Shown: in pieces, positions 22,917 through 63,994 of the stretch
Layout: each line of letters opens with the position of its first letter
Position numbering within the stretch: position 1 is the stretch's first letter
Notes under the pieces: generated by a model
Database searches by the model: none
What the model saw: only the letters and a program-made list of their open reading frames with translations
What the model was told of the DNA's origin: nothing
Made by a program: the position numbers and the translations under genes
From: Hoplostethus atlanticus
Taxonomy: Eukaryota > Chordata > Actinopteri > Trachichthyiformes > Trachichthyidae
Assembly (NCBI GenBank): GCA_034670405.1
Contig: JAXDDX010000010.1
Location: 827,501 to 891,500, forward strand
DNA: 64,000 bases
Direction of reading: 5' to 3'

Positions 22917-25900
22917 CGGCCCCTCTACTTTTCTCCTGTTGTAGAGAAAAGTTTTTGTCCTGGCACCCAAATTGAGTAACTTTAGTCTTACACAGGGAAC
23001 CAGGCTAGTGTTTCTCCCATGTGGGGACCCATCACAAAATAGTCCTGTAACCTCATTTTGGATCCAAGCATCTAGTTAAAGAAGTGCCCTTGTTGTGAGA
23101 TTGTTATACATCAGGTACATTAGATGTGGTACTTAAATACATCCATGTATCCAAGACATTAGGTGACTCCATATATGAAGAGACCAGTGATCCCTGGTCC
23201 GGCTGGACTCATGTGATTAGCGTGTCAGTGACACCCTAAAGCTGCTACTGTGGGCGGGTTTCCTCCCGTCAACATTGGTGCCTCAAGACATCCACAACAC
23301 AGTTTAACCCATGTTAACAGGCCGCTCCTGGGCTGAATACCATCATAAATCTTTCTTTCCCACTCTGCAGCCTGGCAGTAAGATGGTCACATCGGCTAAG
23401 TCATCTGTTCCCACGGTGACGGACCAGGCAGCAGCCATGCAACTGGGTCAGTGTGCCAAGAACCTGGCCACCTGCCTGGCTGAGCTCAGGACCTCTGCAC
23501 AGAAGGTAGAGCACAGATGCACCCAGGCACTCACATGGCAGGGCATCCAGAGAGTCACTGACACACTCACTCCCTTACACGTACACACAAACACACACAC
23601 ATACATGCATGCACAAACCTCTCTCACTCCCATAATGCCCGAAACCTCTCTGGACCATCTACACTAGCAATGTCAAACTCTTTTTATGTCGGCGGGCACA
23701 TTCGACCCATTTCCTCACACGAGACAAACCTTATAACACTAGACTAAAATAAATGACAACACCTCCACCTCTGCTCTTTTCACATTGAATCAGTCCATAA
23801 TGAAACAATCAACCTATTAATTATATATGAATATCCTAAAATGCCTCCCTCTTAACAAAAAATAGATGCGATCCACACAGTGTCATGTCTCGCTTTTTCC
23901 TCTACAGAAAATAGTGCATTTTGAATTAGGTCTATTTTGAGCAAATAATCACAGTGGCCAAATCTACAGCCGTGATTATTACAGTCTACTGACAGTGACA
24001 AGTTATTTTTCATTTTGTGATGCTATGGGGGAAAAAAACAACTCTCACACTCTCAACTTGCTGTTCCTGAAACCTGGCACCTCTTGGCTTTTACCAGTGC
24101 ATTAATATTGGGTGATTTTTGAGCAGTTGACACTTTATTATTATATCATGTGTTTGTGTGTGTGAGCCTGGAGTGCTGAGTTTTGTTTTGTTATGTTCAT
24201 AACAGAAAACACATGCTGACAAATATAAGTAGTCCCAAATATGCACTATATTTTCTGCATGCAGGCCTGTCGATGGGGGATACCTGGGTAAGAAATACTG
24301 ATAGAATGTGTTCAAACCCACAGAGGAAAATGTATGCTTCAACTCTTAATCGCACTGCAAGGCAATCATCTTCAATTGTAGGTACACTGGCACATCAGAA
24401 GCTTTGACTGTGAACAGTTGAGCGAAAAATTGTAAATTCCCTCTCAAGTTCACCGAAGACCTAGAATCTCTTTTGAAACTCACTCGGTAGTCTCGTAATC
24501 CTGTCTTTGGGCCGTTTCATGTCGGTATCTCTCTGAGTGGCCCACACATCGCTCTGATGAGGGGGGAAATGTGCAGGATCACTATTTGACAGCTGCGCTT
24601 CCCACCAAGTCAGCTTCACCTGGAAGGCACAGATGCTGTTATAATGTTGTGTGACGACTTTGGTGGCGACCTTGCATCATTGTATTCAGATTTTTCAAGT
24701 ACTCTGCAATATCCAACAAAAATGCAAGGTCCTTTATCCATTTTGGATGCTTTAACTCGGTCACTGCCTTCCCTTGTTGCCCCATGAATTGTCCAATTTC
24801 CTCACATAATGCAAAGAAACATTTCCGTACGGCTGCATGACTCAACCACCTAACTTCAGTGTGGTAGGGGAGGCCATGAGTAATATTGTTGTCATGCAGC
24901 AGGCTGTCAAACTCCCGGTGATTAACCCCATAGCTCATTCATGGCATCCTCAATTCTTAATGATTTACTACACAGTGCCTCCTGGTGCAAAATGCAGTGA
25001 AAAACAAAAATCTTGTCCTCCGCTTTCTACCTGAACTTCCTCTTTGGAAAAAAGGCTGGTGTTGCCAGTTTCAATCATTGATGGTGTGCCAGCAGCCGCC
25101 AGGCTGACAGCACGGGTCCAGTCCATCCCGAGTCTGTCCAGCACTCCAACAAGGCAGGTGAAAATGTCATGCGCTGTTGTGGTGTCTGTCATCGGCACCA
25201 ACTCCACAAACTCCTCGGTGACGGTCCAAATAACACAAACACCACAAATAAATGTGGCCAGTTGAGCAATGCCTATAATGCCTGTGCTCTCATCAATTGA
25301 CGTCACTTTTTGCTTAAGTTGACGATCCAAACGGCCTGACGCTTTTCAGGGCACGCCAGCTCTGCTGCCTTCAGCATACCAGTGTTAAACTCCCATTCAG
25401 CTCCCCTTTGATGCACATGCAATTTCCTTGCAATTATGTTGCTGCATCACTATCGTGACTATGAGTAAACACAGACTGCTGTTTCCTCACCCCTGCCAAC
25501 AATCAATTCATCTTCTCTTCTTGCATTTGTCCTTGCAAGTTTTTTTTTTTTTTCATGATGTGTCTGATAGTGGCATTGAACTTTATATTTCCTGTGCACC
25601 GACAGCCAGACATACCAGCACACTGATTGGCTGTGGGCCGAATGTTTGACATCGATGATCTACACTAACAGTCAATATTGAGTACTGTTGGCACTATTGA
25701 GGAATATTTGCACAATTGAGCAATGCAGGTACATAATCCTTGAGAATTGAATCGTGTCTGCTGTGCTCTGTAGGCTCATGAAGCCTGCGGCCCCATGGAG
25801 ATTGACTCTGCGCTCACTGCAATCCAGACCCTGAGAAGTGAGCTACAAGATGCCAAGTCAGCTGCTGTTAATGGACAACTGAAACCACTACCTGGAGAAT

Positions 25901-35169: not shown

Positions 35170-38100
35170 CTCTCCTTCCATCCAGTCAGATTAACATTCA
35201 GACACTTCAGTATGTTTTCTTTTGGTCCCTTTCTCTTTCTTTGCTATTCTGTGTCACAGATTGCTCATTAGAGAGAAATCTGAGATTCTGTAGACACTCT
35301 GTTCACCATTTGGCTCCTAATACGAGTATACAGTTGTGAGAAATGTTTGTGAAGCCTTTTGAAATATCTGCATTCTGGCATAAATGAGTCCTAAAATATG
35401 GGCTGATCTTCGTCCAAGTCATAACAATAGATAAACACAATGTGAATAACACACATGAAATGTATTTTTACATGTTTTATTGAACATATTGTTCAGACAG
35501 CCTAAGCTGAAAAAAGTATGTGAACCTCTAGGATAATGACTTCTATGAAAGGGGGTAATTTAATCAGATGATCGGCTCAATGAGATGATATTTAGGTGTG
35601 GGTTAGAGGTGTCCTGTCATATAAAAAACCCACAAAGTTTGGTTACCAATAGAGTCTGCTCTCGAAAAAAAAGATCTGTTGAAGTGGAATATGCCTCGGT
35701 CAAAAGAAATTTCAGAGGACAGGGTAACAGTCTGTGACCTGAAGCTTAACAGAGGTTGGGTCATGCTGCATGATGATGACCCCAAACACAAAAGCAAATC
35801 TACAACAGAATGGCTTCAACAGGAAAATTCACATTTTGGAATGACCAAGTCAGAGTTCTGACCTTCACCCTATTGAACTGTTGTGGCATGACCTGAAGCA
35901 AGCCGCTCATGCAAGACATCCCAAAAATATCAATGAACTGAAACAGTTCTGTAAGGAGGAACGGTCCAAAATACCACAACTGTTGCAGGTCTGATCAGCA
36001 ACTAGAGGAAGTGTTTGGTTGAGGTTATTGCTGCTAAAGAGGCTCCACCAGTTACTAAATCTCATTGTGTTTTATTTTATGGCTTAGATGAAGATCAGAC
36101 CGTATTTAATGGTATATGATTTAATATCTTCTAAAAACCATTCTATAATACTTAGATGTGTTCTCTAATTTGAACTGTCATATGTTTATTGTGCTTATTG
36201 TGTTTATGCTGAAATTGGTAATGGAGCTGGCAGCGTACCAGTTTTGTTGAATTATGCGTAATTTAAGCACACTTGCTAGAGGCTAAAGTAGCTTGGAGCA
36301 AATATCCCCCTGTCTAGTGCCTTTTGTGGGTCCTGGCTGGCTTATTAAAATTCTCCTGTCTTTTGTAAAGCGCAACACAAAGACTGATTTTTCTCTCTCT
36401 CTCTTGCCACACAGGCACTACAAGAGCAACTGACGTCCACCGTGCAGGAAATTGGCTATTTAATTGACCCCGTTTTCACTGCTGCCAGGGGCGAAGCTGC
36501 TCAACTAGGACACAAGGTATACAGTACAGGGAGTTATTAATTACTGTGACTATAAGGTACATACTTAAATGAGTAGCAAAGTAATACTTTTCTTTTAAAA
36601 AATGGGTCAATATTTCTTAAAGTAATGCAGTTACTCAAAGAAAACATGTTATTGATATATATTAAATGATGAGCAGTTAACTAAAGATATGTTGGCAGCT
36701 GTGACTTCACCTGTTAAATGAAAGGGAAGAGCAAAATATTGTAGTCTTTCTTAGAAAACTCCTTTCTAAACTTTGACCCTGTGTGTCTCAGGTGACTCAA
36801 CTGGCTGGCTACTTTGAACCATTGATCATGGCCTCTGTGGGTGTGGCATCCAAGCTGAGGGACCACCAACAACAGATGACCTTCCTCGACCAAACTAAGA
36901 CCCTGGCCGAGTCTGCCCTGCAGATGCTCTACGCCGCCAAGGAGGGCGGAGGAAACCCCAAGGTAAAACCATCACAGGAGGATCACATAGTTTCAATGGC
37001 TCAATATTAAAGAACCAAATATACCCACATCATAAAATATCTCATGTTTACTCACACGTTGGTGTCATAATTCACAGGCATCCCATACCCATGACGCCAT
37101 AGCAGAGGCTGCCCAGCTTATGAAAGAGGCTGTTGATGACATCATGGTGACACTGAATGAGGCTGCCAGTGAAGTGGGCATGGTGGGGGGCATGGTGGAC
37201 TCCATCGCAGAGGCCATGGGCAAGGTGAGTGCTACTGTGCTTGGTCTGTCTCATAGGATGTTTGCCTTCTGAGTGACACTGGTGATCAACTTCCTGTTTT
37301 TGAATGCCTGGATTGTGATTGGTTAAAGCAATTCACACTCTGGGTTACATCACATGTGATGCCATTTTAGCTCAATTTGAATGGACTGGTAGAACAGTAT
37401 GGTAGAAAATAACTTGGTTGGGTCGTGTGCCACTATCTATAGAAAGTGTGGTGCCAAATTGCCATACTGAAAACCAGACAGAAGAGAATACAACAGGCTG
37501 CAGGATATTAGGGTTTTGGACACACCATTAACTACCATTAATTTCTAAAGGTCTACTTTCCTATTTTTTGACCCATTATTTCCTGTTTTTGTGTGTGATG
37601 TCTTTATCCCAACCTAAAATTGGATCATTGTCCAGCCAAGATTGAAAAGTTGTTTTCGGGCCACACCCCAGACAAAAAAGTCATTGATTGACAAATTAAT
37701 ACAAATCACCTGCCATTGAAGCAAAGGAAAATCAACCGTTATGACAGCTATTCTCAGCCAGTGTCAGGCCTTTGGACTATCTCTCCAATTAACAGTCAAG
37801 CTGTTGGCAAACACACCCAAGTTGTGAAGCAAGACAACGTTTTTTTTATCTCAAGTACAGAGAATAGCATCACCTAATTACATCGCTCCCATCTTCCTTG
37901 AGCTCAGTGAGACTTGTTATCTCAAAGGTGCAAAAATGGCTCACATGTATTAGTTGCTAGTGGGAGCAGCATCTGTGCATCGGATTTTTGTTCATGCCCT
38001 TAAAAACTATATATATATTCATGCTGGGTGCCTGCACATGTTTGCATGTGTGTTGATGAGCGTGTGCACGTGTGTCGGATGATTAATTAAAGATACTCGA

Positions 38101-41100: not shown

Positions 41101-44100
41101 TCAATCAAATTGACCAGAACAACACAGCTGAATCAGCTCCACTTCTCTCACATATGTTACACTGACTCTGATGCATTGATATAAAAATCCCTTCATAATA
41201 CTGGTTTACAAAACGAGCCAAACTGGTACCAGTCTGGACCTGTCCCTCAATCTGTATAAACTGGAATAAAATACAGAGAAATCCAGCCAGTGCCTGATGT
41301 AAGATGTCTACATCTCCTCACCTGTATTTCTATTGTGGTACCGTGTCTGTCTGTGTGTGTCCTCAGGTGTCTTTGGTGCTATCAGCCCTCCAGGCGGGCA
41401 ACAAGGGCACCCAGGCCTGTATTACGGCTTCTAGCGCCGTCTGTGGCATCATCGCCGATCTGGACACCACCATCATGTTTGCCTCCGCAGGCACACTCAA
41501 CGCAGAGAACGACGAGTCCTTCGCAGACCACAGGTGGGAGTTGCAAGTGTGTGTGTGCAAAAAATGTGAATCTGTTATGTGTTCATGTCGTGTATTTGGA
41601 TGTTTGCATGTTCAAACAATGTACGTGTAGTACCTGACTGAAGTCTAAAGTCAACCCTAAGGCCATCTTCCTTCCCAAACTGACAGGATGACATATTAGC
41701 TGTTGTACAAGGAGGAGGAAATGTCTGGAGTTAGAGACTACAAATTACCTTTAGGAGCAGAAAGATGGAGGAAGTGTCGCAGCTCTTCAGGCGGGCCGAC
41801 CACTCCACTCAGAGGAGGGGTTCCTATGGTCTTGGAAAACCTGGAAAAGTCCTAGAATTCAAATTGTATTTTCAATGCCTCGTTAAGTTGGAGAAAATGT
41901 ATCCAGAATCAATATCAATAATTGTTACAGTGTCCACAAGTCAAGTGTTTGGTTTTAAGCTTGGTTGGTCTAGTTACCTTTGAAGGAATAAAGTGCAAAG
42001 TGATAGTTGGAAGGATCTTGAACAAGACCAGGCACATTAAATTCATTAAACTATTTACCAAAAAAGTAATTTAGCCTACATCCTGACGAATCATTGTCAT
42101 GGAAATTCCTCACAGAAGAGACATGGAAGCAAAAATGTAGAGAAACCCTGCGGGGGGAGAATGCATCCCCCGTAGCTTCCTGACATTCTCCCTGTCGATT
42201 TCAACAAAATGACTGACTCCTTGTATAATCTTACCTATCCTTCTCGTGCCTGCACCAGCTTTGATGTAGGAATGAATGCCTTTGATATGAAAGGAGCTGT
42301 GCACCGATGGCTATCATTTTGATGACTGTAATTCAGAGGGAGCATTTTATTTCTAGGACATGTAGATCAGGGCTTTGTTATTTCTCATAGAAGGAGTGCA
42401 TAACACTCTTGTCCAGGATATACCTTTTAGACTTAACATAGTTTTTTTTGGTGCTTAGAAATTCATGGATCATTGTCATCATTGTCATCTTTTTGTGTCT
42501 TCCCTTTAATCTATTTTCTCTCTCTCCCTCCCACCCTCCCTTCTCCCTCTGCCTCTCCATCTTCTCTCTCAGGGAAAACATTTTGAAGACAGCCAAAGCG
42601 CTGGTTGAGGACACAAAGATGCTGGTGTCAGGTGCAGCTTCTGGTCAGGACAAGTTGGCTCAGGCTGCCCAGTCTTCTGCCAAAACCATCACGCAGCTCA
42701 CGGACGTGGTCAAACTGGGCGCTGCCAGCATTGGCTCTGATGACCCTGAGACACAGGTCAGCCACTAAGGCTCCACGCTTCTTTTTTGGATCCTTTTAAT
42801 TTCCTCAGCTTCGTGTTTGTCCTTCATTCAGTGAAGTGTTATGCAGTGTTATCAGAAGTAGCACGAGAGACTGAACTGTGAATGGAAATACCCTTTGGGA
42901 GTTTTGTCCTTTTCCCCCCAGATAAAGTGGTGATAAAGCCTTGTCTATTTGTGTGTCCTTTCTCTAGGTGGTTCTGATAAACGCTGTCAAAGACGTGGCA
43001 AAGGCCCTGGCTGAGCTCATTGGTGCCACCAAGTGTGCTGCGGGCAAGGTAGCAGATGACCCATCTATGTACCAGCTGAAGGGCGCTGCCAAGGTAAGGC
43101 GATGGTGTCCAATCACTGGCACTCCTACCCAGCATGGTAATGCTTGCTTCTGATAGGAGCAACAATGCCCCTCCTGGTGATGCCTTCATGTGGGATTTTT
43201 GATTTCAAACAGCAATTTCATGTTCTCTTCTCTGTCCATTGTTTGAGCTATTTTCCTGTCATTTGACCCCCTGTGGTTATTTGCTGTATTCCACAATCTA
43301 TTTGGTTGGCAGATTCATGGTAGAAGGACCTGAAATGGTTCCCACTAGCGCTAATATGCATCTTAAAGGTGTCCTGGTCAGTGTTCATTCAAAGGGAAAG
43401 ACATGCTGTATGTATAGCAGACCCCCCGCCCCCCCCCGGTGGGGTAAGCTTTGAAGCCAAAACAACACCCCCCTCCTGCCATTAAGAAACCTTATTGAAG
43501 GCAGTGACCCAATGATGTAAATGGGCAGTAAAGGAATCTTGACGCCAACAGAGCGCTGGGATATTTCTAACCTGGATGATAAAACAAGGAGTGGACGGTG
43601 TTCTCATGAGGGGCTGAACTCAACACATGTGCAGTGTAAATTTTTAAAGCCACAGACGTACAGGGTCTGCTGACGACACTCCTCACTCCTCATTATCACT
43701 TCTAACAAGGCAAGAAAATCTCAGTTCCACACCCCGTGATACTACGGCATGGTGTTGCAGGATAACTGATTTGGTCCCAGGGTAGTGCTATCTTATAATA
43801 ACCTGCCTCATGTGAGTTTCCAGGCCCTTGGGGTGAGCACATATTGTAAAGCATTTCCAAGATGTTAGCTGCAGCGACTGAGTGCCATGGCCTTTTCTAC
43901 GTGGGTGCTGTGCTCCCCCTATCTTTCAGTACCATGTAATACTGTCTCATATAGGTAAAGGCAATACTATTGCCTCAGAAGAAGACAATTTTAAAGGTTT
44001 CTCTGGTGCACACATACCCACGCTCACACACAGAGGGCAAATTACAAACAACTTGTGACATGCAAAATTGAAGAAATCAGCCACTGCTCATACACTCATA

Positions 44101-47776: not shown

Positions 47777-50700
47777 AGGTCCTGCAGAAGCCCACTCCAG
47801 AGCAGAAGCAGCAGTTGGCGGTATGTTCCAAACGGGTGGCGGGAGCCGTTACCGAGCTCATCCAGAGCGCTGAGGCCATGAAAGGTAAAATGATGCACAC
47901 ACGACCATGAAATATCTGGAGGAAAAAGATGTCATTACCAGGGTTCATTTGACTGCACTGACACACACACATCGTTCACAACAATGTGTTCAGCTCAGTC
48001 AGTGCTGACTTTTTGTTTATTTTGAAAATGAAAGTCCAACACAAGTTTCCAGACCTTATGCTTTATTTATTGTTGAATGCTATCCTTTGTAGAAACCCTC
48101 CAATTAGAGGCTGCTACAACCTGTTCTTTCCCAAATGTTGTAAAGTAAACCTGAATCAGCAAAGCCTGTGTGTCTGAATCTGATTGCCACATCATTCTTT
48201 GTGCCAAAGAGAATAAAATCTGAAATCTAAACCTGGAATTATGGATTAGATATCGTTAGCAGGAAGAATGTTTCAAAGCAGCTCTTGGTAATATCCCTGT
48301 CCTCCCTCTCTTGCCACAGATGGAGGTAAGTCAGGAATGTCTCCTGTACTGTGACTGATTTCACCAGTTGTAAGCTGCCCAACACCTTCTCTCCTCAGTG
48401 CTAGCTTTGACTCAATCATGTAATCTCGTCTTGAAAGCTAGCCGCTACCATGCTACTCGAGTCCGTAAACTGCAGAACCGGCTCCATTCGTCACGCTTCA
48501 TTTGACACTCCATCTCATAAAAAGGCCATCACTTCACCTTCATTTCAGCGAATGGCAGTTTGTAGTCTCCATCAGCTGTGCATGGGATATGGTGATATGT
48601 GGCACACCTTTGTCTGGTCACAGTGTTGGTGCTGTTTGTTGTGGGGCATGTTCTGTTGACATGCTGCTTTGTGAATGTTTGTGTTTTATCTGAGTGCTAA
48701 TTGTGTGTGTGTGTGTGTGTGTGTGCGCGCCCCCTTAGGTTCGGAGTGGGTGGACCCTGAGGACCCAACGGTAATCGCGGAAACGGAGTTGCTCGGGGCA
48801 GCAGCGTCCATCGAAGCGGCAGCTAAGAAACTGGAGCAGCTGAAACCACGAGCCAAGCCCAAGGTAGGTTATTACGCCGCCCATAATGCACTGGGATTTT
48901 GCCAGTGCATGGAGGAGAAGTCGAGGTCGGAGATATGGCACGTCGCGGCACTGTTTCTCTTGGAGGAGTTGCAATCTAACAAAACAAAAAACATTTTGTA
49001 CTGGGTTCAGTGTCACAAGGCCTGAAGGTTCTGGGTCGAACACCATCACAGGAGTAAGACATTAGGGTATGGCTCATAAATTCACAGTTGAATTTTCACT
49101 AGATTGGTCAATGTTTTACACACTAGCTTTCAGTGCCCCAGACTTTATTGCGTCAGCCAGCTGCTATTTTAAATCTGAATTCCCAGGTGGAGTTGTGTCC
49201 TTGTCCTATCCAGAAGATTGTGTTTTTTATAATTCCAAGACATTTTGGTGCAATTTCCATATAAAGAGTGTAAAGAAGGATGAAATCGGAGGCTTGCAAT
49301 CATTTCACCACAATACAAACTCCAGAGATGACTGTGCCTCCTCTTCTGTTTCCCTCCTTGCACCAGCAGAGTGGTTTTTAATTTGAACCTCTCATCCTGA
49401 GTTAACGTCTTTGAACAGTACAGATATCAAACCCCTGTGTTTTCTTCGCAGCGAAGCCTATAAGCATGTCTGTGTGTTTCACCTGACCTTTAATAATGGT
49501 CTGTGCCCGTCTCTAAGCATCTGTATGTCGTTCTTTGGAGTATCTTTAAGCTTGGGTGAAAATATAGGTAGCTGGTGTCATTGCACATGAACAAAACGAC
49601 TTGTTTTGTCGTGGTGACATTCAGAGAAAGAGTGCTCTGTCTCTTGTGCTGTCTCCTCCCTGTTGACATCATCCCATCAAATTTTCTATGGCCTAGAGTT
49701 AAGATTATTAGATTAGATTATTACTTGACCTGAGTCTCTTAATTTGAACTTCCCATAGCTATAACGGTCTAAGACCATTCACCTTTTACCCAGTTCATTG
49801 GGTATCCATAGCCATCAGAGGCCTATCTGAACTCACTACAACCCCCTCTCCATCTCCTCTACAGCATATGACTGGCCTTTCCCCTTCTCCCATACAACAC
49901 TTCTGCCATATTTCCCCCTCCTCCATCATCCATCCCTCCATCCATCTATGGTAGCTCTAGCCAGAGCCTGTCAGAGTATAGCTGTTCTCTGGGTCCCAGT
50001 TTAACCCCCTCCCTCCCTCCCTGCCTACCCCTACCACCGGAGGCCTTCTCTGCAGGGCTCTGTCTGATATGTTTGATATATTAGGTTGTTATTCAGTCCC
50101 AACTATATATCAAACATATTCCTACAGTGTCCCGCTCTGTCTACAGATTTGTGCTGTGAATGTGTGTGTGTGTGCGTGCATGTGTGTGTGTGTGTGTTGG
50201 TGTTTTAATAGGCAGACTGAAGTAGACTACAGCTGGATGTGTAATACTGACAGATAAACTTTGTGTGGAGTCTTGTTGTTCGTCTTCGTCTGCACCTATT
50301 TTCTTATCTGCTGCTGCAGTTCACTGATGAGTTGTTGAATCTGAATATGCACAGTTTTTGGATATATATATATTTTATTTTTTTTCTTCGTCACCCGCTG
50401 CCTCAATATTGATGGAAAAAGTTAAATCAGAGGAAACCTTCCCATCATAGACCAAAGTCTCAATTATAAATGTGTTTGTCTATGTGATGGGCACAATGTT
50501 CCCAAGGCACTTCTTAAATTGCACTCCATCAGTATTGGTGAACCAAAACAATCTGCTATATATTTAAGATTATATTTCTGGGTCTGTTGTTTTGAGAGTA
50601 AATTGAAAGCGTATTATTTAGACTCAGAATGTTTCTTTGAGCTTTCACATCCAGTGAACTAAAATTCCTCATGTTCTTAACAGCTTTGGACCAGATAATG

Positions 50701-53235
50701 TAGTCCTCACTGGACCCACACAGTCCACAAAGTTGGTTTCCTATTGATTAATCAGTGAAGCCCCCCCCCCCATCCAGTCTGACTGACTGTTCTCCTCCCC
50801 CTAGCAAGCGGATGAGACGCTGGACTTTGAGGAGCAGATTCTGGAGGCGGCTAAGTCCATCGCTGCGGCCACCAGCGCCCTGGTCAAATCGGCCTCGGCT
50901 GCCCAGAGGGAGCTGGTAGCCCAGGGCAAAGTGGGCTCTATCCCTGCCAATGCCGTGGACGACGGACAGTGGTCCCAGGGGCTCATCTCAGCTGTAAGTG
51001 TGTACCTAAGGACCATCATACAGGTTACATTTTGCGATGACCGTTATTACACTTATTTCTCTTCCTCTCCTTTTCTCTCTCCCTTTCTTTTCCTTCATCC
51101 CTCTCTCTCTCCCTCCCTCTCTCCACAGGCACGTATGGTAGCAGCGGCGACCAGCAACCTGTGTGAGGCAGCCAACGCCTCTGTGCAAGGACACGCCAGC
51201 GAGGAGAAACTCATCTCTTCAGCCAAACAGGTGGCGGCCTCCACAGCCCAGCTACTGGTGGCCTGTAAGGTGAAGGCTGACCAGGACTCTGAGGCCATGA
51301 GGAGACTACAGGTATGCTGCAAAAACGAGACAGTCTAAAGGCGATGGTTTAAGCGTGCTACGTGTAGCATTTTACCCTTTTTATACTTTGCAAGTGATAC
51401 ACAACTTTATTCCAGTTCCACTATTCTAGCAGCATCGTTTCAACTTCATGTGAGCTTACCTCAGAATGCATCTTCGCTGGGCTGTTATCGGCTCGTATCC
51501 TTCTTACTCTTCAAAACAAAACACACTTGATGGGTTGTAACCTCCCTATTTTAAGATGAATTATTTATGTTGCATTAGGATATAGATGCTCTGTGTAGCA
51601 ACGGTGCTCTTCTCAGGTGCGGGCTGGAGCCGGAATAATTGACATAATAATAACGGAGATAGGAAGTATTGTATGGTACACTGCAAGGCTTCAGACCCAT
51701 TCCATCACTTTCATACCTTTTATGGATGAAAGCAGGTACATTTGAGCAAACAATGTTTTGTGTATAATTTATAAATCTTACATGCAACTTGTTCGAAAAT
51801 GGTGTTTAGCATTTAGATACAAAACAAACAAAACCAAGCTGATAAAATACTGGGCTGTACATCAAAAAAGTAAAATGGAAAATTGCTGTTGACATAATTG
51901 CTGGAGAAGTTGGTCCTCTTGTCAGGGGTTTTACAGCAGGGCAATTACAGTATTCCTATTTGTTTATTAGATTTTATTATAGCATTTTGTTATGCTGTTT
52001 ATTGCAGTTGTGACTGTTAAATTTCCCTCTGGGATCAATAAGTTAGGTACTATTCTATTCAAACTTGGAGGAGGATGGTATTTCTCTTTATCTGTATATT
52101 ATTAGCTTTAGAGAAAATGTGAGGTTGAACAATTTAACACCCTCCTATTTGATCTCCTATTTCATTAATTGCTAATTGCTCTCAATGGATCTCCTTCTCC
52201 TAAAGGCTGCTGGGAATGCGGTGAAGAGGGCGTCAGACAACCTGGTGCGGGCGGCCCAGAAAGCAGCATTCGACAAAGCAGACGATGACAATGTGGTGGT
52301 CAAGACGAAGTTTGTGGGTGGACTTGCACAGGTGAGACTGTCCAAGTGATGTCGATGCCATTTCTACCTGATATATTTGACCTGAATAGAGCTCATTCAC
52401 TGATCGGATTCACTTGACTTGGATTTCAAATGTTTTCATGTAGTGTTTGTAGAGCCCCAGTTCATAAAATATGTAGGAGTAATAATTGATTTAGTTTTAC
52501 TGGTTGTATCAGGTGGCTGTCCATATCTCTGACTCTAGGCGCAAACAGGTCTCAGATCAGCACTCTTATCTTCATATTTTATGAATGTTGGCATTGAGTG
52601 TTTGCATTCACATTAACAATTTGGCACCTTAATATCTGTTTGAATCATGTGAATCACGTTTTGCAGTAAGTGTACAAGAGCAACAACTTACAACAGAGTA
52701 TTCATAAAACTATACAACAATAACAAAGTTCACTGAGCTCTATAAAAGTGTTGTTTTCTATGTTGTCTCAAGGTTTAAGTAGTAGGTTGTTATGAACTAC
52801 AAGAACAACGACTCAAGCAACACACACATATTGCTTTCTTAAGAAAATGGATAAAACAAGAAAATAATGCACATAAAAAAAACTGAAGATAAGCAACATA
52901 AAACCCAAATGAGGATACAGAACAGTAATAAAGTAAAATAATATTAAAAAAAAGATTTGAAAATGGGGACAGATTCTGCTGATCAAATTTTACACTTGAA
53001 GGTTTAAGGTTGTTCCAGAGTCGAGGGTATAGTAAAACATTTACTGTTGTCTACAGGTTTACATATTAAGTGTATAGTAAAAGGTTTTTGTGTGTCGTCT
53101 GTCCAGATCATTGCGGCCCAGGAGGAGATGCTGAGGAAGGAGCGAGAGCTGGAGGAGGCCAGGAAGAAACTGGCTCAGATCAGGCAGCAGCAGTACAAGT
53201 TCCTGCCCAGCGAGCTACGAGAAGACAACAACTAA
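31..53235 (+). CDS. tln2: Talin-2 gene, 53 exons, N-terminus outside window
   Basis: Talin is a large cytoskeletal adaptor that binds and activates integrin beta tails through its FERM head and ties them to actin and vinculin through its rod at focal adhesions. Fifty-three exons join in frame (7262 coding bases plus one carried-in base, about 2421 residues), ending in a TAA. Human talin-2 has 2542 residues, so about 121 (F0 and early F1) lie upstream. Order: F1, F2, F3, linker, R1-R13, dimerisation helix. Seen here: Ser at ~339 in ITKESVMRV (talin-1 has Cys), Trp ~362 in KRWAASP, LQQQ calpain site, Glu ~1772 in LAESALQ, C-terminus YKFLPSELREDNN. Every exon has AG/GT borders and compatible phases, and no frameshift or premature stop is seen, so the gene looks functional. 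Which fish paralogue (a or b) cannot be told. Confidence 0.96.
1010..1038. repeat. (GA)n microsatellite
   Basis: About 14 GA units in the first intron of the window. Nothing else distinctive is seen in that 1.4-kb intron. Confidence 0.9.
1584..1726 (+). CDS. tln2: tln2 window exon 2 (F1/F2)
   Basis: Encodes LNWLDHSRTFREQG through NLLYVQ (~173-220), the end of F1 and start of F2. The acceptor is TCCTCAG and the donor GTCTGA, which departs from consensus. The next intron (1727-3672) contains two CA repeats and a T-run at 3049-3060, with no other recognisable feature. Confidence 0.93.
2284..2377. repeat. Two (CA)n microsatellites
   Basis: CA tracts at 2284-2321 and 2352-2377, separated by 30 bases, in the intron between window exons 2 and 3. 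Confidence 0.9.
3673..3800 (+). CDS. tln2: tln2 window exon 3 (F2)
   Basis: Encodes ARDDILNGSHPVSFDKACEF to HKHKPGFL (~221-262) of the acyl-CoA-binding-like F2 subdomain. The donor is GTAAGC. It ends two bases into an Asp codon (GA|C) completed by the next exon. Confidence 0.94.
4155..4218 (+). CDS. tln2: tln2 window exon 4 (F2)
   Basis: Short exon encoding LKEFLPKEYIKQRGAEKKIF and Q (~263-284). It carries basic residues of the F2 surface that in talin face the membrane. The acceptor is CTCCTAG and the donor GTGTGG. It is followed by a 100-bp intron. Confidence 0.94.
4319..4423 (+). CDS. tln2: tln2 window exon 5 (F2/F3)
   Basis: Thirty-five codons, from DHKDCGEMTEIEVKVKYVKL to SFFLVK (~285-319), at the F2-F3 boundary. 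The donor is a consensus GTAAGT. The next intron (4424-7081) is the longest in the window (2.66 kb). It holds a CT/CA compound microsatellite at 5431-5478 and otherwise nothing I can name. Confidence 0.94.
5431..5478. repeat. (CT)n(CA)n compound microsatellite
   Basis: A CT-rich tract passing into CA repeats within the 2.66-kb intron between window exons 5 and 6. Confidence 0.85.
7082..7237 (+). CDS. tln2: tln2 window exon 6 (F3, integrin-binding)
   Basis: Fifty-two codons of the PTB-like F3 subdomain (~320-371), which binds the NPxY motif of integrin beta tails. KRWAASPKSFTL contains the Trp (~362) equivalent to talin-1 Trp359. ITKESVMRV places Ser at ~339, where talin-1 has Cys; this residue is known to separate the two paralogues and to raise the integrin affinity of talin-2. 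Phase 0 at both ends; donor GTAAGC. Confidence 0.95.
7454..7486. repeat. C-run and (CA)n tract
   Basis: Eleven C residues followed by eleven AC units, in the intron after window exon 6. A further CT/CA tract lies at 8044-8080. Confidence 0.85.
8308..8400 (+). repeat. Local duplication pair A, copy 1
   Basis: TTAATCCTTACAGTAAACCC through GTCCAGTATGAAATGCGTTA. It is similar to 9577-9655 in the same orientation. This copy lies immediately upstream of the TG tract that forms the exon 7 acceptor. Confidence 0.7.
8400..8446. repeat. (TG)n tract forming a splice acceptor
   Basis: Forty-seven bases of TG with one C interruption at 8436, running directly into the AG acceptor (8447-8448) of window exon 7. 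Confidence 0.92.
8449..8550 (+). CDS. tln2: tln2 window exon 7 (F3)
   Basis: Thirty-four codons from DFGEYQESYYSVQTTEGEQI to the C-terminal F3 helix AGYIDIILKK (~372-405). The acceptor AG is preceded directly by a 47-bp (TG)n tract (8400-8446) in place of a normal pyrimidine tract. Phase 0-0. Confidence 0.94.
9394..9470 (+). CDS. tln2: tln2 window exon 8 (linker)
   Basis: Encodes KQSKDRFGLEGDEESTMLEE then SVSPK (~406-430), the start of the unstructured, phosphorylatable linker between head and rod. The acceptor is CTCCTGCAG and the donor GTATGT. It ends two bases into a Lys codon. The following intron (9471-10867) holds a duplicated segment (9577-9655) and a CA-rich patch near 10215-10256. 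Confidence 0.93.
9577..9655 (+). repeat. Local duplication pair A, copy 2
   Basis: TTAATCCTTACAGTAAATCC through GCCCAGTATGAACTGCATTG. It is a diverged copy of 8308-8400 with a ~14-base gap, in the intron after window exon 8. The pair brackets window exons 7 and 8. Confidence 0.7.
10868..11048 (+). CDS. tln2: tln2 window exon 9 (linker, calpain site)
   Basis: Encodes STILQQQFNRVGRVEHGSVA to HRGHMPPL (~431-491). LQQQ is the position at which calpain-2 cuts talin-1 to release the head. The Gly/Ser/Met-rich remainder matches the talin linker. Acceptor TGTCCAG, donor GTCAGT. Confidence 0.94.
11366..11479 (+). CDS. tln2: tln2 window exon 10 (R1 start)
   Basis: Thirty-eight codons, SSAQQALMGTINTSMQAVQQ to LPPLGQDM (~492-529), the first helices of rod bundle R1. 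Phase 0-0; donor GTACGG. Confidence 0.93.
11703..11811 (+). CDS. tln2: tln2 window exon 11 (R1)
   Basis: Encodes ASRVWIQNKVDESKHEIHSQ to NLTA (~530-565). It ends one base into a Gly codon. The acceptor is TGTCTAG and the donor GTTAGT. Confidence 0.93.
12333..12541 (+). CDS. tln2: tln2 window exon 12 (R1)
   Basis: Seventy residues including DYTAVGCAITTISSNLTEMS and the vinculin-binding-site-like helix GVKLLAALMEDE (~566-635), within R1. Donor GTGAGC. The next intron (12542-14199) holds no recognisable gene or transposon; its 3' end is a (TG)n tract. Confidence 0.95.
14129..14198. repeat. (TG)n tract near acceptor of exon 13
   Basis: TG repeat 14129-14185 plus GTGTCGGTGGTCCTGCA up to the acceptor of window exon 13. 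Confidence 0.9.
14200..14298 (+). CDS. tln2: tln2 window exon 13 (R1)
   Basis: Thirty-three codons, PRQTVLTAAGSIGQASGDLL to ETDERFQ (~636-668), the last helix of R1. The acceptor is GTCCTGCAG with a 57-bp TG repeat just upstream (14129-14185). Phase 0-0; donor GTAACG. Confidence 0.94.
15121..15288 (+). CDS. tln2: tln2 window exon 14 (R2)
   Basis: Fifty-six codons, DVLMNLAKAVANAAAMLVLK to STSQLVACAK (~669-724), helices of R2. Phase 0-0. The next intron (15289-16481) ends in a CT tract (16431-16457) that serves as a strong pyrimidine tract. Confidence 0.95.
16431..16457. repeat. (CT)n tract
   Basis: Pyrimidine tract about 25 bases before the exon 15 acceptor; likely serves as its polypyrimidine tract. 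Confidence 0.85.
16482..16616 (+). CDS. tln2: tln2 window exon 15 (R2)
   Basis: Forty-five codons, VVSPTISSPVCQEQLIEAGK to EDGELLKQ (~725-769), in R2. Phase 0-0; acceptor CTCCTAG, donor GTCAGT. Confidence 0.95.
17059..17218 (+). CDS. tln2: tln2 window exon 16 (R2/R3)
   Basis: Encodes VSAAASVVGQALGDLLQHVR to NIFSSMGDA (~770-822). It crosses into R3, the mechanically weakest bundle, which unfolds first to expose vinculin sites. The acceptor ATTGAAG is weak; donor GTGAGT. The next intron (17219-19173) holds a GA tract (18229-18257) and nothing else named. Confidence 0.93.
18229..18257. repeat. (GA)n microsatellite
   Basis: About 14 GA units in the 2-kb intron between window exons 16 and 17. 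Confidence 0.9.
19174..19340 (+). CDS. tln2: tln2 window exon 17 (R3)
   Basis: Encodes GEMVRQARVLAQATSDLVNA to ARMVEAAK (~823-878) of R3. The long pyrimidine-rich acceptor ends TCTCTCAG; donor GTAAGT. The 2.2-kb intron after it (19341-21551) holds TG tracts at 19709-19737 (followed by a G-run) and 21450-21472. Confidence 0.95.
19709..19747. repeat. (TG)n followed by G-run
   Basis: TG repeat ending in a run of ten or more G residues, in the intron after window exon 17. Confidence 0.85.
21450..21472. repeat. (TG)n microsatellite
   Basis: Short TG tract about 80 bases before window exon 18, in TG-rich sequence. Confidence 0.85.
21552..21680 (+). CDS. tln2: tln2 window exon 18 (R3/R4)
   Basis: Forty-three codons, GAAAYPENEDQQQRLREAAE to KKKLINRLE (~879-921), spanning the last R3 helix into R4. 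Phase 0-0; donor GTCAGT. Confidence 0.95.
22406..22519 (+). CDS. tln2: tln2 window exon 19 (R4)
   Basis: Thirty-eight codons of very Ala/Gln/Asn-rich sequence, NAAKQAAAAATQTIAASQNA to LVQSCK (~922-959), in R4. The exon opens with Asn, where human TLN2 has Val as I recall it; the AG at 22404-22405 is the only sensible acceptor. Confidence 0.93.
22738..22851 (+). CDS. tln2: tln2 window exon 20 (R4)
   Basis: Thirty-eight codons, AVADHIPQLVQGVRGSQAQP to IIASQNFLQ (~960-997). The donor GTACAA is followed within 8 bases by a 56-bp CA repeat (22859-22914). Phase 0-0. Confidence 0.95.
22859..22914. repeat. (CA)28 microsatellite beside a donor site
   Basis: A pure CA tract of about 28 units beginning 8 bases after the 3' end of window exon 20. 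CA-rich RNA is a known hnRNP L ligand, so an effect on that donor is possible. Confidence 0.92.
23371..23505 (+). CDS. tln2: tln2 window exon 21 (R4)
   Basis: Forty-five codons, PGSKMVTSAKSSVPTVTDQA to AELRTSAQK (~998-1042). Phase 0-0; donor GTAGAG. The following intron (23506-25773) is largely filled by a 2-kb hAT transposon. Confidence 0.95.
23665..25657 (-). mobile_element. hAT-superfamily DNA transposon, decayed
   Basis: A 1993-bp element within one tln2 intron, flanked by an exact 8-bp target duplication ATCTACAC (23657-23664 and 25658-25665). Imperfect terminal repeats TAGCAATGTCAAAC and, inverted, CATCGATGTCAAAC match at 11 of 14 positions and share ATGTCAAAC, typical of Charlie-like hAT ends. 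On the minus strand it keeps transposase fragments: about 25330-24968 with SIDESTGIIGIAQLATFI and PMTDTTTAHDIF, and 24938-24639 with YHTEVRWLSHAAVRKCFF and WIKDLAFLLDIAEYL. These resemble the DUF4371/hAT transposase of GTF2IRD2- and ZBED-like proteins. The frame is broken, so the element looks dead. Confidence 0.85.
24639..25330 (-). pseudogene. Remnant hAT transposase (DUF4371-like)
   Basis: Two open stretches on the minus strand (25330-24968, then 24938-24639) cover parts of a hAT transposase in the expected order, separated by a frame break around 24940-24965. Identification rests on recognised family motifs (DESTGI..., EVRWLS..., DLAFLLDI). No intact start-to-stop reading frame remains. 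Confidence 0.8.
25774..25902 (+). CDS. tln2: tln2 window exon 22 (R5)
   Basis: Forty-three codons, AHEACGPMEIDSALTAIQTL to KPLPGES (~1043-1085), start of R5. The acceptor is CTCTGTAG and the donor GTAGGG. Phase 0-0. Confidence 0.94.
26051..26153 (+). CDS. tln2: tln2 window exon 23 (R5)
   Basis: Encodes LEKCAQDLGSTSKSVGSSMA to GNEHYT (~1086-1119), ending one base into a Gly codon. The donor CAG|GTTGCT is weak, but the reading frame and the next exon (G|GC) support this border. Confidence 0.93.
26626..26834 (+). CDS. tln2: tln2 window exon 24 (R5)
   Basis: Seventy residues, GIAARETAQALKTLAQAARG to DAESQQRLAQ (~1120-1189), helices of R5. Acceptor TGTGTAG, donor GTGAGA. Confidence 0.95.
27499..27618 (+). 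CDS. tln2: tln2 window exon 25 (R5/R6)
   Basis: Forty codons, VAKAVSHSLNNCVNCLPGQK to ASKKLLIES (~1190-1229). Phase 0-0; donor GTGAGT. The next intron carries a T-run at 27761-27777. Confidence 0.95.
28281..28478 (+). CDS. tln2: tln2 window exon 26 (R6)
   Basis: Sixty-six codons, IPPSSKSFQEAQCELNQTAA to IEMAGHTP (~1230-1295), in R6. The donor is GTATGT, one base before another possible reading, and was chosen because it joins in phase 0 to KKDDQIQ. The intron after it (28479-29808) contains a probable dispersed repeat. Confidence 0.93.
28540..28860. repeat. Probable dispersed repeat, class unknown
   Basis: A-rich stretch followed by GACTTTTAAGAAGGGATTTA and CAGGCAGGTTGTTCCTAAGT, a sequence type I associate with common fish interspersed repeats. 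A similar A-rich block ending GGTTGTTCCAGAGTCGAGGG occurs at 52790-53030. Family and ends cannot be set without a library search. Confidence 0.35.
29809..29948 (+). CDS. tln2: tln2 window exon 27 (R6)
   Basis: Encodes KKDDQIQVIGNLKNISMASS to NLLAAAA (~1296-1341), ending two bases into an Arg codon. Acceptor CTTTTCAG, donor GTACCA. The 1.5-kb intron after it (29949-31461) contains no feature I can identify. Confidence 0.94.
31462..31555 (+). CDS. tln2: tln2 window exon 28 (R6/R7)
   Basis: Encodes AVTDSINQLITLCTQQAPGQ and KECDNALRELE (~1342-1373). A T-rich acceptor ends GTTTCAG; donor GTATAG. Confidence 0.95.
31672..31761 (+). CDS. tln2: tln2 window exon 29 (R7)
   Basis: Thirty codons, AVRGMLDNPNEPVSDLSYFD to VMENSK (~1374-1403), of R7. 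R7 is the bundle that binds KANK proteins at the adhesion rim. Phase 0-0; donor GTAGGC. Confidence 0.95.
31951..32073 (+). CDS. tln2: tln2 window exon 30 (R7)
   Basis: Forty-one codons, VLGESMAGISQNCKTGDVTP to GLTEAAGQ (~1404-1444), in R7. Phase 0-0; acceptor CTGTCTAG. Confidence 0.95.
32212..32355 (+). CDS. tln2: tln2 window exon 31 (R7/R8)
   Basis: Forty-eight codons, ASYLVGVSDPNSQAGRQGLV to PDSSPSQ (~1445-1492). It leads from R7 into R8, the four-helix bundle inserted into R7 that binds LD-motif proteins such as RIAM and DLC1. Phase 0-0. Confidence 0.95.
32571..32732 (+). CDS. tln2: tln2 window exon 32 (R8)
   Basis: Fifty-four codons, VLSAATIVAKHTSALCNACR to NSTANLVKTIK (~1493-1546), covering R8 helices including a known vinculin-site helix. 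Phase 0-0. Confidence 0.96.
32941..33081 (+). CDS. tln2: tln2 window exon 33 (R8/R7)
   Basis: Forty-seven codons, ALDGDFSEENRNKCRVSTSP to SIPAQISNE (~1547-1593), returning from R8 to R7. Phase 0-0; donor GTATGG. Confidence 0.95.
33203..33384 (+). CDS. tln2: tln2 window exon 34 (R7, KANK-binding face)
   Basis: Encodes GSAAQEPILQSARSMLDSST to IKSLITAI (~1594-1653). PPTWSVLAGHSRTVSDS carries the Trp and Ser equivalent to talin-1 Trp1630 and Ser1641 of the KANK-binding face. Donor GTTAGT. The next intron (33385-34880) is unassigned apart from a pyrimidine-rich 3' end. Confidence 0.95.
34881..35013 (+). CDS. tln2: tln2 window exon 35 (R9)
   Basis: Encodes DKAPGQRECDSSIDNINKCI to SRDDISLE (~1654-1698), start of R9. 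Donor GTAAGT. The intron after it holds a 66-bp CT tract and a Tc1-like remnant. Confidence 0.95.
35104..35169. repeat. (CT)n microsatellite
   Basis: About 66 bases of CT with one interruption near 35152, downstream of window exon 35 and before the Tc1-like remnant. Confidence 0.9.
35331..36177 (+). mobile_element. Tc1/mariner-like transposon, internally deleted
   Basis: The left end begins CAGTTGTGAGAAATGTTTGT right after a TA (35329-35330). The internal part of the left terminal repeat (about 35390-35450, GGGCTGATCTTCGTCCAAGT...) is matched inverted by GATGAAGATCAGACCG near 36088-36103, so long terminal inverted repeats are present. In between, a short frame starts MPRSKEISED, the usual Tc1 transposase N-terminus, and jumps to GWVMLHDDDPKHKSKSTTEW from the catalytic C-terminal third. 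Most of the transposase is therefore deleted, and frameshifts follow. The right boundary (GAACTG at 36177) is approximate. Confidence 0.75.
36415..36516 (+). CDS. tln2: tln2 window exon 36 (R9)
   Basis: Thirty-four codons, ALQEQLTSTVQEIGYLIDPV to AQLGHK (~1699-1732). Phase 0-0; acceptor CCACACAG. Confidence 0.95.
36792..36962 (+). CDS. tln2: tln2 window exon 37 (R9, autoinhibition)
   Basis: Fifty-seven codons, VTQLAGYFEPLIMASVGVAS to AKEGGGNPK (~1733-1789). R9 binds F3 in the closed, autoinhibited molecule. The Glu in TLAESALQ (~1772) corresponds to talin-1 Glu1770, a key contact, and is conserved here. Confidence 0.96.
37078..37224 (+). CDS. tln2: tln2 window exon 38 (R9/R10)
   Basis: Forty-nine codons, ASHTHDAIAEAAQLMKEAVD to DSIAEAMGK (~1790-1838). 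Phase 0-0; donor GTGAGT. The 1.5-kb intron after it (37225-38709) ends near a TG repeat and holds nothing else recognised. Confidence 0.95.
38671..38692. repeat. (TG)n tract near acceptor of exon 39
   Basis: Eleven TG units ending 17 bases before window exon 39. Confidence 0.9.
38710..38811 (+). CDS. tln2: tln2 window exon 39 (R10)
   Basis: Thirty-four codons, LDEGTPPEPEGSFVDYQTSM to IAVTAQEM (~1839-1872). The acceptor TCTCCTTAG lies 17 bases after a TG repeat (38671-38692). Phase 0-0. Confidence 0.95.
39253..39372 (+). CDS. tln2: tln2 window exon 40 (R10)
   Basis: Forty codons, MTKSVTCPEELGGLASQVTV to AAYTAEPEE (~1873-1912). Phase 0-0; acceptor CCACCAG, donor GTGAGG. Confidence 0.94.
39812..39958 (+). 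CDS. tln2: tln2 window exon 41 (R10)
   Basis: Forty-nine codons, IGFQIKTRVRELGHGCIFLV to CARSVTEK (~1913-1961). Phase 0-0; donor GTACCA. The intron after it (39959-41366) is unassigned. Confidence 0.95.
41367..41533 (+). CDS. tln2: tln2 window exon 42 (R10/R11)
   Basis: Encodes VSLVLSALQAGNKGTQACIT to DESFADH (~1962-2016), ending two bases into an Arg codon. IIADLDTTIMFASAGTLN is highly characteristic of talins. Donor GTGGGA. Confidence 0.96.
42573..42756 (+). CDS. tln2: tln2 window exon 43 (R11)
   Basis: Encodes ENILKTAKALVEDTKMLVSG to GSDDPETQ (~2017-2078) of R11, a bundle with a second reported integrin-binding surface. Strong CT-rich acceptor; donor GTCAGC. Confidence 0.95.
42968..43093 (+). 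CDS. tln2: tln2 window exon 44 (R11)
   Basis: Forty-two codons, VVLINAVKDVAKALAELIGA to YQLKGAAK (~2079-2120). Phase 0-0. The following intron (43094-45048, 1.95 kb) has a C-run at 43421-43438 and nothing else I can name. Confidence 0.95.
45049..45165 (+). CDS. tln2: tln2 window exon 45 (R11/R12)
   Basis: Thirty-nine codons, VMVTNVTSLLKTVKAVEDEA to IECIKQELT (~2121-2159). The donor ACG|GTGCGG is weak; it is chosen because it keeps phase 0 to LFQSKDVPDK. A LINE-like tail lies in the next intron. Confidence 0.92.
45370..45590 (+). mobile_element. Probable LINE 3' tail
   Basis: The stretch ends AATTTCCCCACAGGGATCGT then TAAAGTTTCATCTAATCTAA, a pattern common at the 3' ends of fish LINE-type retroposons (TTTCCCC...GGGAT...AATAAAGT plus a short ATCT-like tail). 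No coding remnant is seen, so class and strand are inferred from the tail alone. Confidence 0.45.
46696..46881 (+). CDS. tln2: tln2 window exon 46 (R12)
   Basis: Sixty-two codons, LFQSKDVPDKSTTPEEFIRM to KAMSDMLTTCK (~2160-2221). Acceptor CCCCCAG. The donor AAG|GTTCTC is weak. Phase 0-0. Confidence 0.94.
47260..47305. repeat. (GT)n tract upstream of exon 47
   Basis: Twenty-three GT units ending 13 bases before window exon 47; the intervening sequence is TACTATCCTTCAG. Confidence 0.92.
47319..47426 (+). CDS. tln2: tln2 window exon 47 (R12), flanked by GT repeats
   Basis: Thirty-six codons, QAAYHPEVSEEVRNRALTFG to LLEHVLL (~2222-2257). A 46-bp GT repeat ends 13 bases before the exon and a 40-bp GT repeat begins 9 bases after it. 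Length 108 and phase 0-0 mean that skipping would keep the frame. Confidence 0.94.
47435..47474. repeat. (GT)n tract downstream of exon 47
   Basis: Twenty GT units starting 9 bases into the intron after window exon 47. Confidence 0.92.
47745..47774. repeat. (GT)n tract forming acceptor of exon 48
   Basis: Fifteen GT units followed only by CCAG before window exon 48. Confidence 0.92.
47779..47884 (+). CDS. tln2: tln2 window exon 48 (R12)
   Basis: Encodes VLQKPTPEQKQQLAVCSKRV to SAEAMK (~2258-2292), ending one base into a Gly codon. The acceptor is a GT repeat (47745-47774) followed only by CCAG. Donor GTAAAA. A candidate microexon lies in the next intron. Confidence 0.94.
48320..48325 (+). 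CDS. tln2: Candidate 6-nt in-frame microexon of tln2 (unproven)
   Basis: Six bases, ATGGAG, lie between a strong acceptor (CTCTCTTGCCACAG) and a consensus donor (GAG|GTAAGT) in the intron between window exons 48 and 49. The upstream exon ends in phase 1 (AAA G) and the downstream begins GT TCG GAG. Inclusion would change MKG|SEW to MKDGGSEW, adding two residues with no frameshift, at the linker between R12 and the R13 actin-binding domain. This is inference from splice signals only; a decoy splice pair is the alternative. Confidence 0.4.
48702..48725. repeat. (TG)n tract near acceptor of exon 49
   Basis: Twelve TG units followed by CGCGCCCCCTTAG before window exon 49. Confidence 0.9.
48739..48863 (+). 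CDS. tln2: tln2 window exon 49 (R12/R13)
   Basis: Encodes SEWVDPEDPTVIAETELLGA to KPRAKPK (~2293-2334), entering the R13 (I/LWEQ or THATCH) actin-binding domain. The acceptor is CCCCCTTAG after a TG tract (48702-48725). The following intron hosts mir-190a. Confidence 0.95.
50051..50135 (+). ncRNA. mir190a: mir-190a microRNA precursor
   Basis: Hairpin in the intron of tln2 between window exons 49 and 50, on the same strand. The 5' arm at 50065-50086 starts with TGATATGTTTGATATATTAG, the miR-190a-5p sequence. The 3' arm at 50103-50123 contains CTATATATCAAACATATTCC, matching miR-190a-3p, with a short loop GTTATTCAGTCCCAA between. In mammals MIR190A also lies in a TLN2 intron, so the location confirms both identities. 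It is presumably processed from the host transcript. Confidence 0.96.
50805..50993 (+). CDS. tln2: tln2 window exon 50 (R13, actin-binding)
   Basis: Sixty-three codons, QADETLDFEEQILEAAKSIA to DDGQWSQGLISA (~2335-2397), core of the C-terminal actin-binding site. Phase 0-0; donor GTAAGT. Confidence 0.96.
51129..51311 (+). CDS. tln2: tln2 window exon 51 (R13, actin-binding)
   Basis: Sixty-one codons, ARMVAAATSNLCEAANASVQ to DSEAMRRLQ (~2398-2458). LLVACKVKADQDS contains the Lys-Val-Lys patch known to contact actin in talin R13. Phase 0-0. Confidence 0.96.
51930..52070 (+). mobile_element. Probable LINE 3' tail
   Basis: Contains GTTAAATTTCCCTCTGGGAT then CAATAAGTTAGGTACTATTC, the same tail pattern as at 45370-45590 (TTTCCC, GGGAT, AATAA) ending in short TATTC repeats. 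There is no open frame. The 5' boundary is unclear. Confidence 0.45.
52206..52331 (+). CDS. tln2: tln2 window exon 52 (R13 to dimerisation helix)
   Basis: Forty-two codons, AAGNAVKRASDNLVRAAQKA to KFVGGLAQ (~2459-2500). DDDNVVVKTKFVGG fits talin-2; talin-1 has a different, longer acidic stretch here. Acceptor CCTAAAG. Confidence 0.95.
52451..52654 (+). repeat. Local duplication, copy 1 (last intron)
   Basis: From AGAGCCCCAGTTCATAAAAT to TTTGAATCATGTGAAT. It matches 53778-53969 in the 3' UTR in the same orientation, with few substitutions and two small indels. Copy 1 carries extra bases (GAGTGTTTGC) near 52597. Confidence 0.85.
52790..53030. repeat. Probable dispersed repeat, class unknown
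   Basis: A-rich block ending GGTTGTTCCAGAGTCGAGGG, resembling the block at 28540-28860 in the last tln2 intron. It could be the tail of the same repeat family. Weakly supported. Confidence 0.33.
53107..53235 (+). CDS. tln2: tln2 last coding exon (dimerisation helix)
   Basis: Encodes IIAAQEEMLRKERELEEARK to YKFLPSELREDNN then TAA (~2501-2542). This is the antiparallel dimerisation coiled coil, which is also needed for actin binding. The acceptor is CTGTCCAG. Confidence 0.96.
   Translation: MIAAQEEMLRKERELEEARKKLAQIRQQQYKFLPSELREDNN

Positions 53236-61879: not shown

Positions 61880-63994
<2,115 letters not shown>

Follow-up and report, generated by a model that had tools for sequence, protein, structure and literature searches.

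The Talin Locus

A large part of a talin gene lies on the + strand of the window, by which we mean the whole 64-kb stretch of DNA analyzed here. In a crude gene model, talin-like exons, the earliest of which are shaky, run from about 8.4 or 10.9 kb to beyond 52 kb. The model was obtained by a home-made dynamic program that covered the region 1000-53400, and its splice weight matrices are vertebrate consensus frequencies. The first two exons of the model, at 7082 and 8449, are shaky, and some talin-like stretches, e.g., near 36415, 46702, and 53107, are left out of it. All counts among 41 model exons given below refer to the second version of this model. The exons for the C terminus score 478 bits against a talin-1 chain of the PDB, and they also match the Pfam I/LWEQ family. 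We take the gene to be talin-2 (tln2), because of residues typical of TLN2 and a tropomyosin neighbor, which is also found beside human TLN2. The tropomyosin exons are located at 62071-62729, 3' of the talin gene. Two further acceptors in the window deserve mention in their own right. A strong acceptor at position 23908 (score 9.7) has no modeled exon and could belong to a missed or alternative exon. The very strong acceptor at position 42922 (score 10.4) lies 46 nt 5' of the modeled exon start at 42968, and its use would shift the frame.

A 6-nt Candidate Exon between R12 and R13

The talin exon at 47779-47884 (+ strand) encodes the end of R12 and ends in phase 1 (...TELIQSAEAMK/G). It is followed by a phase-1 intron of 854 nt (47885-48738, + strand) and by a talin exon at 48739-48863 (+ strand) that leads into R13 (GSEWVDPEDPTVIAETELLG...). 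The exon/intron border at 47884 reads GCCATGAAAG/GTAAAATG, and the intron/exon border at 48739 reads CCCCCTTAG/GTTCGGAGTGGG. Both of these outer splice sites are weak by the matrices used, with scores of 2.4 for the donor AAG/GTAAAA and 1.5 for the acceptor.

The interior of the intron carries TCCTCCCTCTCTTGCCACAG/ATGGAG/GTAAGT on the + strand. An AG-free zone of 36 nt (48282-48317) contains a branch-point-like GTAAT with its A at -29, a pyrimidine tract, a UC repeat, and a UGC. The acceptor TCCTCCCTCTCTTGCCACAG at 48300-48319 includes the UC repeat, TGC at -8 to -6, and the AG at 48318-48319. The candidate 6-nt microexon ATGGAG follows at 48320-48325, and the consensus donor GTAAGT occupies 48326-48331. 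The original prediction had placed ATGGAG at 48320-48325, bracketed by an acceptor and a donor within an 854-nt intron, and the coordinates and sequence are as it claimed.

When 47779-47884, 48320-48325, and 48739-48863 are joined, the product is AEAMKDGGSEWVDPEDPT, which is free of stops; when ATGGAG is skipped, it is AEAMKGSEWVDPEDPT. Across the junction, skipping gives the peptide AEAMKGSEWVDPEDP and inclusion gives AEAMKDGGSEWVDPEDP. Inclusion would place Asp-Gly between the K and the G of MKGSEW, giving MKDGGSEW. The joined sequence agrees with the predicted two-residue insert between phase-1 flanks, and the frame stays open.

The site of the insertion in the protein was located by matches to talin-1 structures. 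The PDB entries 3dyj and 9qn7 match residues 1-34 of the query, 2jsw matches from residue 38, and 9az6 matches from residue 41. Asp-Gly would be inserted between query residues 32 and 33. This leaves two residues to the end of the R12 match and five to the start of the R13 match. The insertion thus falls on the R12-R13 junction, where R12 is just ending, and the talin-1 matches bear out the earlier claim that the insertion lies just before the R13 actin-binding domain. A search with a 104-aa talin query of bacterial, archaeal, and viral collections, which are uninformative on fish, returned 592 pattern matches in genome_contigs and 89 in viral_contigs, none of them confirmed.

Strength of the Splice-Site Pair

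The candidate acceptor scores 8.7 and is the best AG of the intron, the next best reaching 4.6. The donor GAG/GTAAGT scores 7.6 and is the sole GT in the intron above 3, all others scoring at most 3. The best acceptor and the best donor of the intron are therefore those that stand 6 nt apart. Their summed score of 16.4 is exceeded in just two of the 41 model exons. Over both strands of the 64-kb window, no other in-frame pair of 3-27 nt reaches 16.4. At a threshold of 10, one further in-frame pair of this length range is found on the + strand, where it is 3 nt long and uses the acceptor of a model exon (16482), and the - strand of the window has none even then. When any length of 3-30 nt is admitted at threshold 10, four more pairs on the + strand and two on the - strand (11 and 25 nt) appear, none near 16.4.

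Simulated sequence gives low expectations. In 40 Mb each, pairs of at least 16.4 over nine lengths occurred 2 times in order-2 Markov sequence and 7 times in order-5 sequence, corresponding to 0.0032 and 0.0112 per 64 kb; the rate for 6-nt pairs alone was 0.0016 in both. In 60 windows of Markov-4 sequence, no pair reached 16.4 and 56 reached threshold 10; at the latter threshold, the real window contains 2. If all sites in the window, with true exon sites included, are paired independently, the expectation is 0.04 over the nine lengths. Since the feature was chosen after reading the sequence, the genome-wide look-elsewhere effect is larger than these per-window figures.

Strong single sites that lack a model exon are not rare in the window, which counts against the microexon reading. 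Ten AGs score at least 8.7, comprising four model acceptors, the candidate, and five that are neither, and twelve GTs score at least 7.6, comprising five model donors, the candidate, and six that are neither; some of the sites outside both groups may belong to missed exons. As a control, 35 introns were examined, and in 7 of them the best internal donor follows the best acceptor at a distance of 1-60 nt. Apart from the intron of the candidate, the remaining six all have an acceptor weaker than that of the candidate, and their sums reach up to 12.8. The splice-site pair is well above chance.

Upstream Layout and the Srrm3/4 Code

The canonical Srrm4 layout, as described in the available text of a zebrafish study, places a UGC together with a UC repeat or comparable tract immediately before the microexon, and it is reported for 42 of 95 microexons conserved between mouse and zebrafish (PMC12626420). 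The eMIC code, as outlined in the accessible part of a fly-mammal comparison, includes a long AG exclusion zone, a UGC near the acceptor, a UCUC-rich tract, and a strong branch point (PMC8797185). In the same source, the 3' splice-site regions of eMIC exons are said to be very weak, and their upstream donors strong, relative to fly constitutive exons. Most of these features are said there to hold in mammals, with a weak own 5' splice site being specific to fly.

The candidate has a length of 6 nt, within the 3-27 nt of the class, and is in frame and open. A UC repeat and a UGC stand directly upstream of it (TCCTCCCTCTCTTGCCACAG), a feature absent from the original prediction, and its own donor is not weak (7.6). 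The AG-free stretch before it is 36 nt long and may correspond to the long exclusion zone of the class. The putative branch point GTAAT, with the A at -29, is a partial match that agrees with the consensus at four of five positions. A weak 3' splice-site region is a tendency of the class that does not define it. The acceptor is strong (8.7) by the matrix used here, which rewards a long pyrimidine tract, and the published analysis is described as using maximum entropy on the AG region (PMC8797185). The upstream donor, at 2.4, is weak and does not follow the tendency toward strong upstream donors, a tendency described for fly that does not define the class.

A UC repeat and a TGC are found jointly at one of the 41 model exons, TGC alone at 9, and a UC repeat alone at 13. 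An ordered layout rule applied to the window picks out 31 of the 4123 AGs of the + strand and 20 of the 4371 of the - strand. An ordinary talin exon that starts at 36415, outside the model, is preceded at 36385-36414 by TTTTTCTCTCTCTCTCTTGCCACACAG, which has nearly the same UC-repeat and UGC letters. Because other AGs fit the layout rule, including the start of this ordinary exon, the layout is suggestive and non-exclusive. It suggests a fit to the Srrm3/4 code, though not every tendency of the class is present, and the strong-scoring acceptor and weak upstream donor tell against the eMIC reading.

Interpretation and Alternative Explanations

The candidate is likely to be spliced as a microexon in some tissue. 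With moderate confidence, we propose that tln2 has in ATGGAG a real cassette microexon of 6 nt that keeps the frame and probably belongs to the neural Srrm3/4 (eMIC) class. The original claim of a microexon is supported, as a prediction, by the exceptional in-frame splice-site pair and by the R12-R13 position.

The same letters could also have arisen by chance, as an acceptor-like pyrimidine-rich AG and a GTAAGT whose 6-nt spacing is accidental and which are not used together. A rate of 0.003-0.011 per 64 kb would still yield some such pairs across a whole genome, and the same upstream layout is seen at an ordinary talin exon. Against this, the expectation is well under one per window, and the antisense strand lacks an in-frame 3-27-nt pair even at threshold 10. 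A coincidence would need an extra factor as well, because the UC repeat and TGC occur together at just one of the 41 model exons, and we consider chance an unlikely explanation. It is less likely still that the microexon is real but broadly included, or controlled in muscle or heart by RBFOX, MBNL, or QKI instead of Srrm3/4. The strong candidate sites and the weak outer donor and acceptor of the intron (2.4 and 1.5) would favor broad inclusion, and a muscle-regulated microexon has been described in Snap23, according to the available part of the source (PMC12064062). A TGCATG at 48579, 254 nt downstream of the candidate, carries little weight because the window has 30 copies of this motif, and the UC/UGC layout points to Srrm3/4 instead.

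Separate use of the two sites, in which the acceptor pairs with a donor further downstream or the donor with an acceptor further upstream, would create a poison exon or a longer exon. Such pairings reach a summed score of 9.3, which is about 7 bits below that of the 6-nt pair, and the nine other listed pairings (score at least 5, 3-300 nt) are all out of frame or bear a stop; we regard this possibility as highly improbable. Two further ideas about the intron were rejected. A CA repeat at 47955-47971 and a GT repeat at 48702-48726 could pair and loop out the candidate, but the fold is no better than that of shuffled sequences (z 0.60, 13 of 20 at least as stable). An origin from a mobile element is not indicated either, as no clear copy of the intron occurs in the rest of the window, where its other matches are 20-52 nt long with E values of 0.01-0.05.

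If ATGGAG is a neural Srrm3/4 microexon, its regulation may proceed as follows. In cells without Srrm3/4, exon definition would fail on so short a candidate, which would be skipped, and PTBP1 may sit on the UC-rich tract. In neurons, and possibly in endocrine cells or muscle, Srrm3/4 would act at the UGC by the acceptor, and this action together with the strong GTAAGT donor would lead to inclusion. The product would gain Asp-Gly (MKDGGSEW) and with it a longer hinge right ahead of the first R13 helix. This helix is reported, in the accessible text of one study, to limit actin binding by ABS3 (PMC6927945). The longer hinge could, speculatively, alter the release of this helix under force or the presentation of ABS3. 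The full proposal, an undescribed talin-2 neural microexon that lengthens the R12-R13 hinge by two residues in neurons or another cell type and alters the force-release of the R13 actin site, is tentative and less likely than not to hold. The two inserted residues may also do nothing. Removal of microexons is described as having minimal impact on the form and function of the larval zebrafish brain in the available text of the study (PMC12626420). If the proposal is true, talin-2 as an adhesion force linker would be subject to a splicing switch.

Comparison with Known Microexons and Talin Isoforms

A talin-2 microexon was not found in the open-access literature searched, and VastDB or supplementary tables may already list one. 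Such tiny exons are said to be often missed by standard RNA-seq aligners, and zebrafish brain RNA-seq is reported to have revealed 1882 microexons, 23.8% of them absent from the Ensembl annotation, both according to the accessible part of the source (PMC7821500). That fish brain is rich in microexons favors a real one in tln2. Because aligners often miss tiny exons, silence of the annotation is weak evidence of absence. The zebrafish share of lineage-specific microexons seems to be larger, as far as the available text describes it (PMC12626424).

Talin-2 has been described, in the text available, with tissue-specific splice isoforms of unknown function. In mouse, four tissue-specific splicing events are reported in the coding region of talin-2, and those described in the accessible part of the paper, i.e., skipping of exon 43, skipping of exons 43 and 44, and inclusion of exon 54b, include none at the R12-R13 junction (PMC2702505). 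According to the same source, exon 54b, reported in mouse and human, inserts 15 aa between residues 2458 and 2459, and the variant with this insert is the major one in mouse brain. Like exon 54b, the candidate would be an alternative insertion that keeps the frame and lies in the C-terminal actin-binding part of talin-2. However, exon 54b is a 45-nt extension of another exon elsewhere, and the candidate stands in a different intron. The window exon matched to mouse exon 54 (51129-51338 region) ends at 51311. Reading on from there, the frame meets TAA after 8 codons, and the 15-aa extension is therefore not encoded as such in this window. The candidate as the exon 54b variant is ruled out by its location in another intron and by this TAA 8 codons past 51311.

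The talin-1 cassette exon 17b is likewise in frame, long overlooked, and near a rod-domain junction, and its inclusion is reported to change mechanical stability, as described in the accessible text (PMC9997659). It differs from the candidate in belonging to another gene, in its R1-R2 position, in its length of 17 residues, and in its high levels in skin and pancreas (PMC9997659, same text).

The closest likeness is to the vertebrate neural Srrm3/Srrm4 (eMIC) microexons. Shared features are the length of 6 nt within the range of 3-27 nt, the preserved frame, the UC repeat and UGC, the strong donor, and the placement between two domains encoded by a cytoskeletal gene; the AG-free zone may be another. 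In contrast to the published tendency, the candidate has an acceptor that scores as strong by the matrix used here and a weak upstream donor. The Dctn2 microexon has the same length of 6 nt; it is neuronal and was unannotated before being validated, according to the available part of the source (PMC7821500). Dctn2 is another gene, and its microexon is supported by RNA. ATGGAG is a well-supported sequence candidate for a known microexon class, and it is not categorically new.
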